A DNA stretch of 23,648 nucleotides, from positions 1 through 23,648 of IMG/VR virus record IMGVR_UViG_3300031787_000848; one strand, written 5' to 3'. Positions 4,981 through 12,682 of the stretch are shown one piece after another. The notes beneath the pieces were generated by a model, which was given only the letters and a program-made list of their open reading frames with translations, had not been told where the DNA came from and made no database searches. Position numbers and translations under genes: made by a program. Position 1 is the stretch's first letter; every line of letters begins with the position of its first letter. The DNA comes from a virus.

Positions 4981-5273
4981 TGGCTTTTACCAAGTGAACG
5001 AATTGAATCGATTGCGTCATTTGCTGCGTCAGCAAAACCAAACAAAATCGACTGAGGATTCCATCCAACGGGCCTGCGCTCATGCACCATCACGCCATCA
5101 GGGTCCAGTTTGTTGTATTTGCATATTTCCGCTGATACCGCCTTGAGCAGATCGACTTCTGATTGCACCACAATATCTATGATTGCTTCCGCCAAGCACT
5201 CAAGGTCCTTTGGATCGTGAGACTCCCCGCCAAGATCGCGAGCCACTTTCTCAATGAGTTCCTGCCTAGTCAT
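4977..5273 (-). CDS. Hypothetical 98-residue acidic protein
   Basis: No family recognised. The sequence starts MTRQELIEKVARDLGG and is largely helical and acidic, with a central segment (CLAEAIIDIVVQSEVDLLKAV) that could pack as a hydrophobic helix. GGAGGG lies 4 nt upstream of the ATG. The gene overlaps its neighbours at both ends by ATGA. Local base composition is visibly more AT-rich than the flanking genes (for example 5020-5170), which hints at recent acquisition. Coding status is well supported by the RBS and overlaps; function is unknown. Confidence 0.7.
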   Translation of the reverse strand: MTRQELIEKVARDLGGESHDPKDLECLAEAIIDIVVQSEVDLLKAVSAEICKYNKLDPDGVMVHERRPVGWNPQSILFGFADAANDAIDSIRSLGKSQ

Positions 5274-5572
5274 GCGTCCCTCCTCTTCCTGATGCAGAGT
5301 TCATAGCCAGCGGCGTTGAGCGCGGCCTCGAAGGTAACGAGCGCTGGCGAGTGCTGGTAGCGCCATTGGCTCATCGTGTCGATCTGTACGCCAGACCGCT
5401 CGGACAGCACCTTGAACGTGAGGAACGGGTCCTCGTTGACCAGTTCGTAGAACTCACGGACCAGCGGGTGCATGTTGCCGGTGGTCGCCAGCTTGATGCA
5501 GCGACGACCACGACGATTGTCGGCCATCTTGCGGTAGCCCATGATGCGGGCCGGGGTCATTTCCTGCGGCAT
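5270..5572 (-). CDS. Small helix-turn-helix-like protein
   Basis: 100 residues. A basic N-terminus (YRKMADNRRGRRCIKL, 13-28) precedes a segment that reads as a helix-turn-helix: FKVLSERSGVQIDTMSQWR (53-71), then PALVTFEAALNAAGYEL (76-92), resembling the end of XRE/Cro-type folds. The likely start at 5572 overlaps the stop of the nuclease gene (TGATG); an in-frame ATG at 5560 is an alternative. It may be a DNA-binding regulator or a partner of the neighbouring nuclease. Motif strength is moderate. Confidence 0.62.
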   Translation of the reverse strand: MPQEMTPARIMGYRKMADNRRGRRCIKLATTGNMHPLVREFYELVNEDPFLTFKVLSERSGVQIDTMSQWRYQHSPALVTFEAALNAAGYELCIRKRRDA

Positions 5573-5901: not shown

Positions 5902-6683
5902 AGCGGAATCTCCCCATTGCCCTTCATATGCTCCAAAGCCTCGCCGTTCGCCATCTCCTTGAAGTTCCACATGCGACCGGCAATCAGGCAGAACGTCTCA
6001 TAGCGCCGTTCGCCCCACTTTCCGTCGGTCAGGTCTCCGGTTTTCCACGGCCAGAGCGTCCTCGGTGCGGTCATCACGACCTCGCAGCCCTTGCGGAGCG
6101 CCTCATAGCCCAAACCGGAGTTGAACGACGCCACGACGGCCACGTTCTCCCAGAAATCGTCGGTTTTTGGGCTTTTCTGGGTCGTCACGACCATCATGCC
6201 GGGGTAGAGACGCCTCAAGGTGGCCCTCCACTTGCCGTCAAAGTCGGGGGAGAGACCGTAGTGCTGCACCATGTATGCACTCGGCGGCTGGTAGATGACC
6301 AGTCGGCTCTTCTTGATGGCCCTCTTTGGCTCCAGCTTGAGCAATCCCTTCTTCTGGAGGGTTTCCAAGCGGCGCGAATCGTACTCGACGGTCAGCTTCC
6401 GCTCGTTTGACTGGTTGTTAAGCGAGAAACGGAAGTACCCGCCCCTGCTGTTCAGGTCCTCCGTGCGCCCAAAGAAGGCGTGGTCCACATGGACGTAGGA
6501 TTTCCATTCCTCCTGGGTCTTGCGGTACATCTCCGCGCCGCCGTAGAGGATGCCGTAGTGGAGATTGATCTCCGCGAGCGGCTCGCCGTGGCGCGCGTAA
6601 TGCTCACCGTGCATCCAGTTGCGGGCAAGGTTCTCGCCAAGCTGGTGCGGAGCGCCGCTGGGCGCAAAGAACTTGATCGTCAT
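5898..6683 (-). CDS. GT-B / capsule-synthesis-like protein (putative glycosyltransferase)
   Basis: 261 residues without signal peptide or membrane segment. The clearest clue is AVVASFNSGLGYEALRKGCE (182-201), which resembles the donor-binding loop of KpsC/KpsS-like capsule (Kdo) transferases and other GT-B enzymes. There a Ser-rich turn precedes Gly-x-Glu-Ala-Leu and a small residue before the next strand. LVIYQPPSAYMVQHYG (128-143) could be the linker strand and first C-terminal-lobe loop. The protein is shorter than complete GT-B enzymes, so it may be only a minimal or degenerate version. Start and stop overlap both neighbours by 4 nt. Role inferred from its company; catalytic residues are not proven. 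Confidence 0.66.
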   Translation of the reverse strand: MTIKFFAPSGAPHQLGENLARNWMHGEHYARHGEPLAEINLHYGILYGGAEMYRKTQEEWKSYVHVDHAFFGRTEDLNSRGGYFRFSLNNQSNERKLTVEYDSRRLETLQKKGLLKLEPKRAIKKSRLVIYQPPSAYMVQHYGLSPDFDGKWRATLRRLYPGMMVVTTQKSPKTDDFWENVAVVASFNSGLGYEALRKGCEVVMTAPRTLWPWKTGDLTDGKWGERRYETFCLIAGRMWNFKEMANGEALEHMKGNGEIPL

Positions 6684-7015
6684 CGTGCAAGTCGCCCCGT
6701 GACCTTGAGTTTCACATCCTCGTAGCGCCTACCGGCCATCAGGCCAGCAAGGATCTCCTCTGGGTCCGTGGCGGGAAGGTCGCCAAGCGAGGGAATATCG
6801 CCCATCGTCATGTAGGTCGGGCGCACCTTGCTGTTTGGCCCCCGAGAATAGCCGATGCGTTGCACAAGACCCTGCTCCACAAGCCGCATGACGACGACCA
6901 GCACCTTGGATGCCGTCGCGCCGCTGACCATGTCGCGGATCTCCGCAACCGCCCATTCGCCTTCCTGGCGAGCGATCACATCGCGGATCTCTGAAGCTAT
7001 CGTGCCGCGTACCAT
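6680..7015 (-). CDS. Winged-helix-like DNA-binding protein
   Basis: 111 residues. IRDVIARQEGEWAVAEIRDM, then VSGATASKVLVVVMRLVEQG and LVQRIGYSRG read as helix-helix-recognition helix-wing of a winged helix-turn-helix (about residues 10-60). The ATG at 7015 has GGAGG 5 nt upstream and shares one base with the terminase stop (TGATG); a GTG immediately before it is too close to the ribosome site. The C-terminal half (PRPTYM onward) has no recognised domain. It could be a late regulator or DNA-binding packaging factor. Lying directly after large terminase, it is the first gene of the inserted module. Confidence 0.68.
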   Translation of the reverse strand: MVRGTIASEIRDVIARQEGEWAVAEIRDMVSGATASKVLVVVMRLVEQGLVQRIGYSRGPNSKVRPTYMTMGDIPSLGDLPATDPEEILAGLMAGRRYEDVKLKVTGRLAR

Positions 7016-8511
7016 CACACCCTCCGTGTGCGTACTGCGTATGGGTCCCTCGAAACCGATCCTCCACTCAACTCCCGTGCGAGGTCAAGCATTTCCTCGT
7101 TGTACCTGTCTTTTTCCGTCGTGACCTTGCTGTGCATCGAGATTGCGAAGGACACCTCATCATAGACATGGTCCTCCTGCCGTCTGGTGGCTGGCCCCTT
7201 GTCAGGCTCAAGCTCGTCAAGCGTCAGGCCGGGGCAGGTGCGCCAGAAGTGGCGGCAGTTGTCGGTCACGAACAGCAGCGGCGACCAAGTGCCATCCGAT
7301 TGCTGCTCGCCAATGAGGTGCTGGACCATCGTCGTGTAGTTGGCCTTCCGATCCCTGCGGCCCTGCCGGAGGATGAATCGACCGGAAGTGGCGGTCCTCA
7401 TGTTGTCCTGAGGGGAGGGACCGTCCTGGCTGGCCCACATCTGCGGGTCAGCGACCCGGAAGTCCATCGGCGGCAACTGCATCTCGCCTTCAAGCCGGAT
7501 GACCTCGCGGGCCACCTCGGCTGCCGACATGCGCGCGCCCATGTCCGCTTCCCCGTTCCACCCGTACCACTCGGCAAAGCGGATCTTCGCGCCGGGCGGG
7601 AGGTAGACCTCGGGGAATCCGTCCTTGGCCTTCAGAGTTGCTCCCTCCGATATGCAGTACCATCCGATGGAGAAGGGCTTGGCTGTGCCCCAGTCCATAG
7701 CCATGAAATGGGTCCAATGTCGTGGGGGCTTGAAGCCGCGAATGAGATGCTTGCCCCGGTCGAGCATGGATAGGGCTGCTCCCGAAACCACATCCCAGTC
7801 GCCGTCCCGTAGTGCCTTGGCCCGCTCGGGGGACAAAGCGGTGAAGGATCCTTCATAGCTGTCAACATCCAGATGCGGGTTGTCGTCCATCTTTGCGGGG
7901 ATGTAGATGCTCTTCCACCCCGGCGAGTTCTTGGTCTTGGTCGTCTTGTCGTGGAAGAAGTGCATCGGCGGGGCTTGCTCGATGAAGATGTCCCGCAAGA
8001 GGTTGTGCGCGGGGCCGCCGGGATTGCTGCCGATGACAATCCTCGGGAACACATCCTCCTGCTGGGCCTTGTAGCGACCCAGACGCACTCGGGTACGGAG
8101 GAACTTGATCTGGTCAGGCAGCAGGAGCGCCGCTTCGTCCAGCCCCAGCCAATGCATCTCCGCGCCCTGGTACTTGTAGATGTCCGCCAAATCCTCCGCG
8201 AAGCAGAACTGGAGGAACGCCCCGTTGTAGAACGTCAGCTTCCGATCCGTTTCCTTCCAAACCGCCACCTCAGGGGGGATCGCCATCTGCTGGATGGGGA
8301 TCAGGTGGTTGTCCTTCAGTTCCGGGTAGGTCCGCCGAAAGAGATACGCCTGCAAGCCAGCGTTCTGGAGGCACGAAATGATGCCATCCATCCTGATGGC
8401 ATGACTCTTGCCCCCGCCCGCAGCACCACCGTAGAGAACCTGCCGCGCCTTAACTGCGTGGAAGATCCTCTGCTTCTCCGATGGCTGGTAGCCCAGCGAC
8501 CATTGGGGCAT
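7015..8511 (-). CDS. terL: Terminase large subunit (packaging ATPase/nuclease)
   Basis: 498 residues, full length. It powers DNA translocation into the procapsid through the portal and cuts the concatemer. Walker A is GGAAGGGKSHA (28-38). Walker B is MHWLGLDEAALL (119-130) with D125 and catalytic E126. The coupling motif is IVIGSNPGG (158-166). The RNase-H-like nuclease has FMAMDWGTAK (D273), FRVADPQM (D355) and EDHVYDEVSFA (D447/D451). GGAG lies 7 nt before the ATG. The first 62 nt overlap the small-subunit gene in another frame, so the two are probably translated in a fixed ratio. Confidence 0.96.
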   Translation of the reverse strand: MPQWSLGYQPSEKQRIFHAVKARQVLYGGAAGGGKSHAIRMDGIISCLQNAGLQAYLFRRTYPELKDNHLIPIQQMAIPPEVAVWKETDRKLTFYNGAFLQFCFAEDLADIYKYQGAEMHWLGLDEAALLLPDQIKFLRTRVRLGRYKAQQEDVFPRIVIGSNPGGPAHNLLRDIFIEQAPPMHFFHDKTTKTKNSPGWKSIYIPAKMDDNPHLDVDSYEGSFTALSPERAKALRDGDWDVVSGAALSMLDRGKHLIRGFKPPRHWTHFMAMDWGTAKPFSIGWYCISEGATLKAKDGFPEVYLPPGAKIRFAEWYGWNGEADMGARMSAAEVAREVIRLEGEMQLPPMDFRVADPQMWASQDGPSPQDNMRTATSGRFILRQGRRDRKANYTTMVQHLIGEQQSDGTWSPLLFVTDNCRHFWRTCPGLTLDELEPDKGPATRRQEDHVYDEVSFAISMHSKVTTEKDRYNEEMLDLARELSGGSVSRDPYAVRTRRV

Positions 8512-9882: not shown

Positions 9883-9910
9883 TGTGTCCCTCCAGTTAGT
9901 TGTATGTGCG

Positions 9911-9939
9911 TGTATATAGGGTGTGGTTGGGTATGGCAA
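9911..9939 (-). promoter_or_regulatory. Leftward sigma70-like promoter for the packaging operon
   Basis: On the minus strand TTGCCA (9934-9939) is followed after exactly 17 nt by TATACA (9911-9916), matching the -35 and -10 consensus at 4 of 6 and 5 of 6 positions. Transcription would begin near 9904 and give a leader of about 22 nt before the ATG at 9882, whose ribosome site is GGAGGG. It is the only strong leftward promoter seen ahead of the terminase/portal block. Confidence 0.6.
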
Positions 9940-10232
9940 TGGGAAATGGCGATGCCTGACATGCTTTTCCTGCATCCCCCTATTCGATTGCCGCATGGCT
10001 TGCAGGCTAGAACCTGGCCGAGAGGAACCTGATCCGCCTTGTCTCCCCCCGTGCTATCTCCCCCCTTAGAGGATGATAGAGCCGCTTTCGGGGGCCTCTT
10101 CTTTCGCAGCGCATCCCGCCACGCCCTTACACGCCCTAGACCCCGCAAGCGGCACGGTATCAGGCTACCATATCGCCGCTCCGGCCCTTCCGCTCGCCTA
10201 CACCATGACACACACAAGCACAAACGCATTTA

Positions 10233-10288
10233 TTGCATAGCACATATGCAAACATTGCGTAACTGGCAAACGCAATTCACGTTATTCT
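10233..10288 (+). promoter_or_regulatory. Rightward early promoter/operator cassette, copy 1
   Basis: Two dyads in tandem. TTGCATA (10233-10239), spacer GCACA, TATGCAA (10245-10251) is a perfect 7-bp inverted repeat. TTGCGT (10255-10260), 9-nt spacer, ACGCAA (10270-10275) is a perfect 6-bp one. A -10-like TATTCT (10283-10288) follows; the position 17 nt upstream (TAACTG) is a poor -35, so the second dyad covers the -35 region. The cassette is repeated at 11538-11594. This suggests a shared activator or repressor controlling both early units. The gene for that protein was not identified. Confidence 0.6.
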
Positions 10289-10323
10289 ATGCCCCGTGCC
10301 GCATGGTGCGGCCTGGAGGGTAG
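10246..10323 (+). other. Possible leader peptide ORF (25 codons) over operator copy 1
   Basis: An ATG inside the first dyad opens a 25-codon frame (MQTLRNWQTQFTLFYA...) whose TAG stop lies inside the ribosome site of the next gene, 2 nt before its ATG. The equivalent frame in copy 2 starts MQTLRSWYTQSTISYA, 11 of 16 residues identical. No Shine-Dalgarno precedes either ATG, and substitutions are not concentrated at third positions, so DNA-level conservation of the operator is the simpler explanation. Confidence 0.22.
10298..10312 (+). promoter_or_regulatory. Small hairpin just upstream of the first early ribosome site
   Basis: GCCGCA (10298-10303), loop TGG, TGCGGC (10307-10312): a perfect 6-bp stem ending a few bases before GGAGGG of the gene at 10326. 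It may affect initiation or mRNA stability. No equivalent is present in copy 2. Confidence 0.3.
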
Positions 10324-10325
10324 CA

Positions 10326-10775
10326 ATGGTATTGGATAGCTTGCGGCCTGGAACGTACAGGCTGGCGATTGACATAAAGAACCCTTGCGCCGATAGGCGG
10401 AAGAAGAACGACTGGCGCGCCGCGCCTATCATCTCTGCGGGGACGGGGTTTGTAGTAGAGGCTTTGTTAAACGAAGAGGGCCAGCCTATCGGCGCTTCCA
10501 TCATTTCTGCGGACGCCGGGAACGATTGGTCATGCGTCCCCTACTATCCGCGCGGTAGCCTCCGCCCACTCTTCGAAGCAATCGCGCCTAACCTTGTGCG
10601 CGTTGGCGACGAAACCCGGACGCCCGGACAGATAGCCGCCGCTATCCGCGAAGCCGCGCCAGACTTGCTGTCGGCCTTGGAGGATATTATCGGGGACGGA
10701 TACTCGACGCAAGCTATCGCGCCATCGGCTTATGAAGCCGCGCGGGCGGCTATCGCCAAGGCCAGGGGGGAGTGA
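10326..10775 (+). CDS. Hypothetical early protein, 149 residues
   Basis: First gene of early unit A. The ATG at 10326 has GGAGGG 5 nt upstream. The N-terminal half (RLAIDIKNPCADRRKKNDWR) has no recognised domain. The C-terminal half, with PDLLSALEDIIGDGYSTQ and ending ARAAIAKARGE, resembles the helical tail found in many small phage and plasmid proteins of unknown role. No membrane segment. The gene is followed after 4 nt by the next start, so both are probably translated from one message. Confidence 0.75.
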   Translation: MVLDSLRPGTYRLAIDIKNPCADRRKKNDWRAAPIISAGTGFVVEALLNEEGQPIGASIISADAGNDWSCVPYYPRGSLRPLFEAIAPNLVRVGDETRTPGQIAAAIREAAPDLLSALEDIIGDGYSTQAIAPSAYEAARAAIAKARGE

Positions 10776-10779
10776 ACCA

Positions 10780-11046
10780 ATGGCCACGAACCTTACCCCA
10801 TATCAGATTGCCGCAATGGCGGAAGACCTTGATGGCTTGGCGAACATCCGCCGCATCAACGCCCTCTTCCGCGAACAGGACGAAAGCCACCTCTACCCTG
10901 TTTGCGGTCGCTTCAATGCAACCGAACGGGCAATCCGGCGCCTTCGTAAGGCGCAAGCCGATGGCGCTTGTATCAATCCGGGCTTGGAATACGCCCTCGC
11001 CCTTGATGCAGAAATCTCCGCAATCGTTATCGATGCAGTGGCGTAG
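10780..11046 (+). CDS. Hypothetical early protein, 88 residues
   Basis: Begins MATNLTPYQIAAMAEDLDGL; the ATG is 7 nt after GGGGAG, and that ribosome site lies across the end of the preceding gene. The protein is helical, with ATERAIRRLRKAQADGACIN in the middle and an Ala/Ile-rich C-terminus. No family recognised. Short length and operon position suit an early host-takeover or regulatory protein, but this is not shown by the sequence. Confidence 0.72.
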   Translation: MATNLTPYQIAAMAEDLDGLANIRRINALFREQDESHLYPVCGRFNATERAIRRLRKAQADGACINPGLEYALALDAEISAIVIDAVA

Positions 11047-11113
11047 GCCTGACCTGGTTTGGCACGGCGGCGGGACGAAATCCGGCTACGTCTTCGTGCA
11101 GGTGTTCGCATGA
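11033..11113 (+). CDS. Possible 26-residue coupled micropeptide
   Basis: Reads MQWRRPDLVWHGGGTKSGYV and then FVQVFA. It starts inside the end of the preceding gene and its stop overlaps the ATG of the next peptide (ATGA), filling an otherwise empty 63-nt gap. No Shine-Dalgarno is visible, so expression would need re-initiation. Sequence composition looks protein-like but proof is lacking. Confidence 0.3.
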   Translation: MQWRRPDLVWHGGGTKSGYVFVQVFA

Positions 11114-11181
11114 TCGCGATCGCGCGTTTCATCGGCTATCTACTGCTACTGGCGCTGTTTGTCGCCGGGCTTTATCGCTAA
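11110..11181 (+). CDS. 23-residue membrane micropeptide
   Basis: MIAIARFIGYLLLLALFVAG plus LYR: a single hydrophobic helix with one positive residue on each side. AGGTG lies about 7 nt upstream. It ends just before the strong ribosome site of the next gene. Similar one-helix micropeptides occur elsewhere in this window (9677, 15028). Function unknown. Confidence 0.48.
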   Translation: MIAIARFIGYLLLLALFVAGLYR

Positions 11182-11192
11182 CGGAGGGGAAG

Positions 11193-11357
11193 ATGCGACG
11201 AATGTCGGAAGATGAAATCGAGCGGCGCGTCGAGCGCATGGTTGATGCGCTGGATAGACGCTTTATGGCCGACAAGCTGGATCAAGCGCAATACGACGCC
11301 GAAATGAAGAAGATTGACGCATGGTCAAAAGCGGCATTGATAGCACCGGCTAACTGA
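11193..11357 (+). CDS. 54-residue charged helical protein
   Basis: Starts MRRMSEDEIERRVERMVDAL and ends KAALIAPAN. The ribosome site GGAGG is 5 nt from the ATG. The sequence is strongly amphipathic and probably one or two helices, similar in style to short scaffolding or regulatory proteins of phages. It is the last gene of early unit A, 5 nt before the terminator. Confidence 0.7.
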   Translation: MRRMSEDEIERRVERMVDALDRRFMADKLDQAQYDAEMKKIDAWSKAALIAPAN

Positions 11358-11362
11358 CAAGC

Positions 11363-11388
11363 AGGGGCCTGGCGAAAGCTAGGCCCCT
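11363..11388 (+). terminator. Rho-independent terminator closing early unit A
   Basis: AGGGGCCT (11363-11370) pairs perfectly with AGGCCCCT (11381-11388). The stem continues through a G-T wobble and GC/GC pairs to a GAAA tetraloop (11374-11377). A pyrimidine tail CTCTTCCC follows. The stem is very stable; the tail is only moderately U-rich. It separates unit A from the second promoter cassette. Confidence 0.7.
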
Positions 11389-11510
11389 CTTCCCGCGCCC
11401 ATGCTCCCGCAAGCCTATCACATGGCCCCCGTGCCGCCACATGCGCTCGCCAGCCTATACCATGGCCGTGCGGGCAATATCGCGCGCCACGCGGGCATAT
11501 GGGGACACAT

Positions 11511-11636
11511 GAAGGACTGCCGTGAGGGGATGCTTCTTTTGCAGCACAGCCATGCAAACTCTGCGTAGCTGGTACACGCAATCAACGATATCTTACGCGC
11601 TCACGCGAACACGCCCCACCGTGTGAAGGACTGCCG
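11511..11636 (+). repeat. Direct repeat GAAGGACTGCCG flanking promoter copy 2
   Basis: The 12-mer GAAGGACTGCCG occurs at 11511-11522 and 11625-11636, bracketing the second promoter/operator cassette. A near copy (AAGGACTGCCGCG) is the ribosome site region of the gene at 12679. The 114-bp spacing makes it a candidate remnant of the duplication that created the second cassette or a regulatory site; short length means chance is possible. Confidence 0.35.
11538..11594 (+). promoter_or_regulatory. Rightward early promoter/operator cassette, copy 2
   Basis: TTTGCA (11538-11543), 9-nt spacer, TGCAAA (11553-11558), then TGCGT (11562-11566), 9-nt spacer, ACGCA (11576-11580), and a -10-like TATCTT (11589-11594). 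Aligned without gaps to copy 1, positions 11552-11591 match 10246-10285 at 32 of 40 bases, and both -10 hexamers fall at the same offset. It precedes early unit B, whose first start is at 11660. Upstream, imperfect repeats around CCTATnnCATGGCC (11413 and 11455) have no assigned role. Confidence 0.6.
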
Positions 11637-11659: not shown

Positions 11660-12184
11660 ATGGACGACATCATCTGCACAATTCCGGTCTTCGATGGGAA
11701 TTGGTCGGTTCAGCACTACTGGGCATACGAAGACGGGTACAGCGTCTGCGACGTGGACGGCAACCATGATGACTGCGAGGAGTCCGACATCCCCAGCCCG
11801 AAAGCGGTCTGCGAGGCGTGGAAGGAATACTCCTGGTGGGTTCTCAAGAATAACGGAGAAGACCCCCTGCGAGAGTTCCTTGTGGCTCGCACCGTTGAAA
11901 GCAAGTGGCGGGTGCGCCTGTCGAATAGCATTGTCGGGGTTGTGGCTTGCGAGTTCCGTCGCAACGGCAGGCAGGTGATGCGCGATGCCCTTCCAGAAGA
12001 GGCTGTCGATTACCTGTGCCTTCATCCCAATCGCAGGAATGTGATCGGCGTCAAGAAGGTAAGCGATGTCGATCCCATCACTCGGGTCGGATGGCACGAC
12101 TTCAAGATCAAGACCGCACGAAGCGATGCTGCAATCCGCCGAGACATCATCAACGCCGCAAAGCGGCATCTCAACATCTCGTAA
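11660..12184 (+). CDS. Hypothetical early protein, 174 residues
   Basis: First gene of early unit B. It starts MDDIICTIPVFDGNWSVQHY with GGAGGG 4 nt upstream. The acidic segment DVDGNHDDCEESDIPSP (about residues 31-47) is followed by KAVCEAWKEYSWWVLKNN. The C-terminus is basic (FKIKTARSDAAIRRDIINAA). No known domain or membrane segment recognised. Position right after an operator-controlled promoter suggests an early-expressed regulatory or host-takeover function, which is inference. Confidence 0.72.
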   Translation: MDDIICTIPVFDGNWSVQHYWAYEDGYSVCDVDGNHDDCEESDIPSPKAVCEAWKEYSWWVLKNNGEDPLREFLVARTVESKWRVRLSNSIVGVVACEFRRNGRQVMRDALPEEAVDYLCLHPNRRNVIGVKKVSDVDPITRVGWHDFKIKTARSDAAIRRDIINAAKRHLNIS

Positions 12185-12194
12185 GGAGGGACCA

Positions 12195-12380
12195 ATGCTC
12201 ATCTCGTCATACGTCCATAAGTTTGCCGTCCACGCGGAGATCGCTCCGTCTGGTCGCCACATCCTCGTAAAGCTGGACCAGGGGCATGGGGTCACCATGA
12301 CCATGAACCACTCCGAGGCCGCCGCTCTGCGCGATGCCCTCACAGGGGCCCTGCTCTCCATCCCGGAGGGCCAGCGATGA
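12195..12380 (+). CDS. Hypothetical 61-residue protein
   Basis: Starts MLISSYVHKFAVHAEIAPSG. AAGGAGGG lies 4 nt before the ATG, 10 nt after the previous stop. It looks like a small beta-rich domain (HILVKLDQGHGVTMTMNHSE) followed by one helix (AAALRDALTGALLSI), a layout seen in many unnamed phage early proteins. It overlaps the next gene by ATGA. Confidence 0.7.
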   Translation: MLISSYVHKFAVHAEIAPSGRHILVKLDQGHGVTMTMNHSEAAALRDALTGALLSIPEGQR

Positions 12381-12682
12381 GCCCGGAGGAGAAGTTCGCG
12401 GCCATCGTGGACACGGTGTGCCGCCATTACAACGTCCCGCGCAATGTCCTCATGGGTCCCCGCACCTCGCAGGCCATCAGCCGGGCGCGCCACATGAGCA
12501 TGGCGCTCTGCTATGCGATGGTGCCGGAATGGACCACCATCGAGATCGGTCGTCGGCACAACCGCAAGAGCGGGCATTGCATCACCCTGTACGCCAAGAA
12601 CAAGGTGCTTGCAGACGAACGCCAGAAGGAGGTCCACGCGCACCTGGTCGATGTGCTGGTGGGGAAAGGACTGCCGCGATGA
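12377..12682 (+). CDS. DnaA domain IV-like DNA-binding protein
   Basis: 101 residues. VDTVCRHYNVPRNVLMGP (11-28), RTSQAISRARHMSMALCYAM (29-48) and TTIEIGRRHNRKSGHCITLY (53-72) follow the DnaA C-terminal domain: first helix, the basic loop with Arg and the long helix ending in the AMYL-like hydrophobics, then the IGRxxxRxxHxTxxxA signature helix-turn-helix. No AAA+ ATPase is present, so this is a stand-alone DNA-binding domain. It might bind DnaA-box-like sites at the phage origin, recruit or compete with host DnaA, or act as a transcription factor. GGAGG is 7 nt upstream. Confidence 0.72.
   Translation: MSPEEKFAAIVDTVCRHYNVPRNVLMGPRTSQAISRARHMSMALCYAMVPEWTTIEIGRRHNRKSGHCITLYAKNKVLADERQKEVHAHLVDVLVGKGLPR

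Follow-up and report, generated by a model that had tools for sequence, protein, structure and literature searches.

Class II activators bind at a site centred at about -42, with lambda CI at PRM as the model. At lambda PRM/OR tandem dyads lie about two helical turns apart, one activator site is located near -42 and the -35 is poor. In T4 middle promoters the MotA box is a single site at -30 with the sequence (a/t)(a/t)(a/t)TGCTTtA, and a good -10 is required (PMC2988021). The NarL-dependent ogt promoter of E. coli is weak, has TATCTT as -10 and depends on two upstream activator dimers at -44.5 and -77.5 (PMC7419079).

Here, a 23,648-nucleotide stretch of a virus record (IMGVR_UViG_3300031787_000848, positions 1 to 23,648, in the following called the window) was analyzed, in which one cassette with putative operators lies directly ahead of the first gene of each of two rightward units. 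It resembles lambda PRM/OR in all three features named above, and its binder is likely of the lambda-repressor fold, but the cassette occurs at two separate rightward operons, no divergent partner promoter is shown and no CI-type gene was found. With T4 middle promoters it has in common a host-type -10, a phage element replacing the -35 and the use for several units, whereas the dyads are placed at -42/-64 and the -10 is weak (4/6), so that the cassette does not belong to the MotA type. The ogt promoter is similar in its weakness, in the -10 TATCTT and in its two upstream dimer sites; its regulator is a host protein of a different family, with different sites.

The phage and its gene layout

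The window represents part of a tailed-phage genome. Genes for the small and large terminase and the portal (packaging/structural) are encoded leftward, and the rightward block contains a YqaJ/RecE-like exonuclease, an Erf-like annealing protein and a methyltransferase, typed from its sequence as 5-methylcytosine type. From this gene content the rightward units are presumably early. A second record, IMGVR_UViG_3300027816_000161 (45,768 bp), is 98.9-99.99% identical across the entire window and is probably a complete genome, since its ends overlap each other by about 127 bp. The genome has a G+C content of 61%, and both cassette copies are A+T-rich. The large terminase reaches a best similarity of about 34% to named phages, and a terminase search of the genome contigs found no prophage relative. 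The cassette offers a precise putative regulatory site for an uncultured phage group without a close named relative.

Upstream of the leftward genes (window 9890-9965, - strand) TTGCCA-N15-TATATA-like promoter hexamers were noted by eye, which are unlike the cassettes.

Two copies of one cassette

The duplicated promoter-like cassette of the original prediction was confirmed, with copy 1 at 10233-10288 as given there and copy 2 at 11539-11594, starting one base later than proposed. The two copies lie 1,306 bp apart and match at 40/56 bases; the best ungapped block (10246-10289 and 11552-11595) matches at 34 of 44 bases and the wider span (10224-10295 and 11530-11601, both intergenic) at 49 of 72. 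When both intergenic regions were dinucleotide-shuffled, the best of 1000 trials reached 29/44, compared to the real 34/44. The window contains two further same-strand pairs with an equal or better match, both of them coding repeats. The core pattern, expected 0 times in the window, occurs there exactly twice, and a search of the full 45,768-bp genome for further copies again gave exactly these two. In IMG/VR and the genome contigs no copy of the cassette was found outside this phage species. The 17-base pattern has other matches, but these stand alone, without the remainder of the cassette, and were read as chance. The cassette is thus real, above chance, promoter-like and common to two operons, and is an ordinary kind of phage control element.

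Putative operator sites and promoter-like elements

The two dyads originally described, TTGCAT-N7-ATGCAA and TTGCGT-N9-ACGCAA, are exact in copy 1. However, this inward-facing reading is awkward for one dimer because the spacers are unequal, and the same half sites appear better read as outward dyads AYGCAA-N3-TTGCRT with a constant spacer. The following elements were assigned:

10224..10238, putative operator site A of copy 1, ACGCAT-TTA-TTGCAT, 1 mismatch, centre about -64
10246..10260, putative operator site B of copy 1, ATGCAA-ACA-TTGCGT, 0 mismatches, centre about -42
10270..10275, extra half site ACGCAA of copy 1, between the -35 and -10 positions, conserved in copy 2
10283..10288, + strand, -10-like TATTCT of copy 1, 4/6 match to TATAAT, no -35
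11530..11544, putative operator site A of copy 2, degenerate, ATGCTT-CTT-TTGCAG, 3 mismatches
11552..11566, putative operator site B of copy 2, ATGCAA-ACT-CTGCGT, 1 mismatch, centre about -42
11576..11581, extra half site ACGCAA of copy 2
11589..11594, + strand, -10-like TATCTT of copy 2, 4/6 match to TATAAT, no -35

With up to one mismatch the N3 dyad occurs in the window only at 10224, 10246 and 11552. Shuffled windows contain it 0.18 times on average and a pair 20-24 bp apart in 0/300 cases, figures which are partly circular because the consensus itself was taken from the window. Sites A and B of copy 1 jointly form a 16-nt inverted repeat that is 81% complementary. The half site at 10270-10275 makes up the second of the originally described dyads together with 10255-10260, and may represent a weak third site.

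As predicted originally, a -10-like hexamer is present at the same offset in both copies, each without a good -35: at 15-19 bp spacing the match to TTGACA never exceeds 3/6. A sigma-70 promoter scan found none at the cassettes. Sigma-54 promoter and NtrC-type TTGCA-N9-TGCAA readings were compared by eye and set aside. If the start is set 7 bases past the -10, transcription would begin at about 10295 and 11601, and the centres of sites B and A fall at -42 and -64 in both copies. As in operator-controlled phage promoters in general, the copies are intergenic, lie directly upstream of an operon and combine a -10-like hexamer with an inverted-repeat putative protein site overlapping or adjoining the promoter. 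Both copies hold paired putative regulator sites in place of the -35, so that a single protein probably switches the two gene groups. Should both operons depend on one regulator, the cassette would be the master switch of the rightward program.

Genes and signals around the cassettes

Copy 1 is bordered by the leftward genes on one side and by the first gene of unit 1 on the other. Copy 2 sits within a 300-bp gap; a strong terminator precedes it, and the first gene of unit 2 follows. The surroundings comprise:

10298..10312, + strand, leader hairpin GCCGCATGGTGCGGC, immediately 5' of the ribosome-binding site GGAGG
10326..10775, + strand, first gene of unit 1, 149 aa, function not assigned
11362..11391, + strand, intrinsic terminator closing unit 1, GC-rich stem, -25.7 kcal/mol, z -3.3
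11510..11522, + strand, left copy of the 13-bp perfect direct repeat TGAAGGACTGCCG flanking cassette 2
11624..11636, + strand, right copy of the same 13-bp repeat, 114 bp from the left one
11660..12184, + strand, first gene of unit 2, 174 aa, function not assigned

In copy 1, TATTCT is followed by 9 bases, the small hairpin and GGAGG (hairpin plus GGAGG, window 10298-10322). The same hairpin and GGAGG follow a conventional promoter in the related phage contig L008 (3183-3199), at an equal distance from the -10, and in the relative L031 the leader has changed bases with the pairing retained. This leader common to relatives suggests the likely transcription start. A second leader of the hairpin-GGAGG type was observed in L031/L006.

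In relatives, GGACTGCCGC occurs once before the DnaA-C-like gene and once at its end; together with the repeats flanking copy 2 this suggests that cassette 2 may have come by recombination in the leader, on a segment of about 114 bp.

Promoters of the relatives

The proposal of a promoter class wider than this phage did not hold. No copy of the cassette was found in L008, L031 and the other relatives with an 89-90% identical large terminase, nor in more distant ones. The dyads, for which the original prediction looked to conservation in relatives, are not conserved in the clade; their function in this phage is not thereby refuted. What stands of the class used twice is an operator-bearing promoter-like element before each rightward unit of this one phage. 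Upstream of the relatives' first rightward gene there is mostly a -35-like hexamer and no operators; by eye it reads TTGCAC in L008, L031 and L013 and TTGACG in L010 and L015. The promoters ahead of the leader in L008 and L031 consist of TTGCAC and TATATC; the Caulobacter promoter consensus is quoted as TTGaCgS / GCtANAWC (PMC8144410). As the relatives mostly have a -35-like hexamer and lack operators, this one phage species has lost the -35 and, along with that, gained the operators.

Similar operators in other phages and candidate binding proteins

Operators that resemble the cassette in half site, N3 spacer and 21-23 bp spacing were found in six other contigs, one of their sites being nearly identical. 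The tandem operators of the form CTAYGCAA-N3-TTGCRTAG are located at:

L062, 2435-2475
L063, 4632-4669
L064, 310-431
L068, 8685-8724
L071, 11225-11264
L072, 776-815

An IMG/VR-wide search with two N3 dyads 22 bp apart matched this phage and one contig, L062, and a slightly altered dyad pattern matched L062, L063 and L064; all these matches came from patterns presupposing the N3 spacer, and by our own estimate of the collection size fewer than one would be expected by chance. All three of these unrelated phages have the tandem operator where a small XRE gene starts. A pattern with variable gap matched 20 stretches, several of which lie within coding sequence and look like chance rather than operators. 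L068 and L071 carry the exact tandem and L072 has two mismatches per site; these three encode the same XRE protein family 2-3 kb from the operator, which is placed near recT. A further array in L064 holds ACGCATTTATTGCGTAG, identical at 16/17 bases to site A of copy 1 (10224-10240). Copy 1 has the tandem N3 dyad at 22 bp, with 1 and 0 mismatches in the 12-base cores; its extended site B differs from CTAYGCAA-N3-TTGCRTAG at 2/16 bases, and copy 2 has one good site only.

With weak scores, the XRE family resembles phage repressors in PHROGs and, in the PDB, the repressors of lambda, 434 and P22. It is present in 6/13 records searched, and this phage, in contrast to the operator-bearing contigs, is not among them: neither profile A2 nor an hth profile detected a homologue in the window or the genome (G001). 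For the L063 member, named phage genomes contain no match. The operator class is plausibly XRE-bound, which would link the cassette to the operator found at the gene of a lambda-repressor-like family in another phage group. A literature search for the half site returned unrelated sequence matches only. In L069, a contig with 59% G+C, TTGCGTAG-N6-ACGCAA-N3-TTGCGTA (2747-2776) was observed in the gap that separates a methyltransferase gene from a small ORF.

The helix-turn-helix proteins of the window, named originally as candidates for a binding test, could not be linked to the sites. ORF 5270-5473 (- strand, leftward operon) encodes a 67-aa protein that is XRE-like by eye and 51-90% identical in relatives. 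It was rejected, being 76-90% identical in cassette-less relatives and showing no alignment with the operator-linked XRE family; its structure model (pLDDT 53) was too poor for use. The protein encoded at 12377-12682 contains the helix-turn-helix of DnaA domain IV (Pfam PF08299, E 7e-11); relatives with a terminase identity of up to 90% encode it at 33-40% identity. Both this protein and ORF 6680-7018 were set aside as binders because they are also found in relatives without the cassette.

Proposed regulation and alternatives

From these features we infer a promoter role, an XRE-like binder and activation. The cassettes would be a co-regulated phage promoter pair, activated from -42 by an XRE-like dimer, a reading to which we assign a probability of about one half. 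A dimeric lambda-repressor-like (XRE) protein would bind the AYGCAA-N3-TTGCRT sites, and the dimer at about -42 would substitute for the absent -35 and bring the RNA polymerase of the host to the weak -10. A second dimer could bind at -64 in copy 1; in copy 2 the corresponding upstream site is degenerate. The -42/-64 positions and the absence of a -35 favor an activator of the lambda CI or class II kind. Against this reading speak the degenerate site A of copy 2, the lack of an XRE family homologue in the genome and the absence of the cassette from the closest relatives.

Alternatively, the sites could be repressor operators, at which an XRE-like repressor made by the phage, a prophage or the host shuts both promoters in late feedback or immunity; we regard this as possible, though rather doubtful. 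The tandem operator at the XRE gene start in L062-L064, placed as in autorepression, and the conserved half site between the -35 and -10 positions (10270 and 11576) favor it, and the good conservation of this half site fits repression better than activation. However, promoters of such apparent weakness, with 4/6 in the -10 and no -35, would hardly call for a repressor, and the strongest site is found at -42 and not over the -10. Activation from site B could also be combined, in a mixed scheme, with repression at the weak third site.

Improbable in our view is that the phage has no regulator gene of its own and its operators read an XRE-family protein of the host or a resident prophage. If true, both rightward operons would respond to the presence of another element.

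That copy 2 is a functionless chance remnant of a recombined segment, with only copy 1 working, appears quite improbable. The 13-bp direct repeats on either side of copy 2 and its degenerate upstream site are in line with such a remnant. On the other hand, the core of copy 2 is retained at 34/44 bases, and unit 2, lying behind the strong terminator, probably needs its own promoter.

Replication-origin iterons instead of promoters are very unlikely: the most A+T-rich 72 bases of the window contain cassette 1, the cumulative GC skew has its minimum near 11000 and the DnaA domain IV-like protein is encoded nearby (12377-12682), but the skew turn coincides with the switch in gene direction, just two copies exist, each at an operon start with fittingly placed -10, hairpin or terminator, and by eye the dyads contain no recognizable DnaA-box-like sequence.

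Repeats of GGACTGCCG flank cassette 2 (window 11510-11522 and 11624-11636), and another is found where the DnaA-C-like gene ends (window 12668-12682). In relatives this word stands ahead of the DnaA-C-like gene and again at its end, as if marking module joints.
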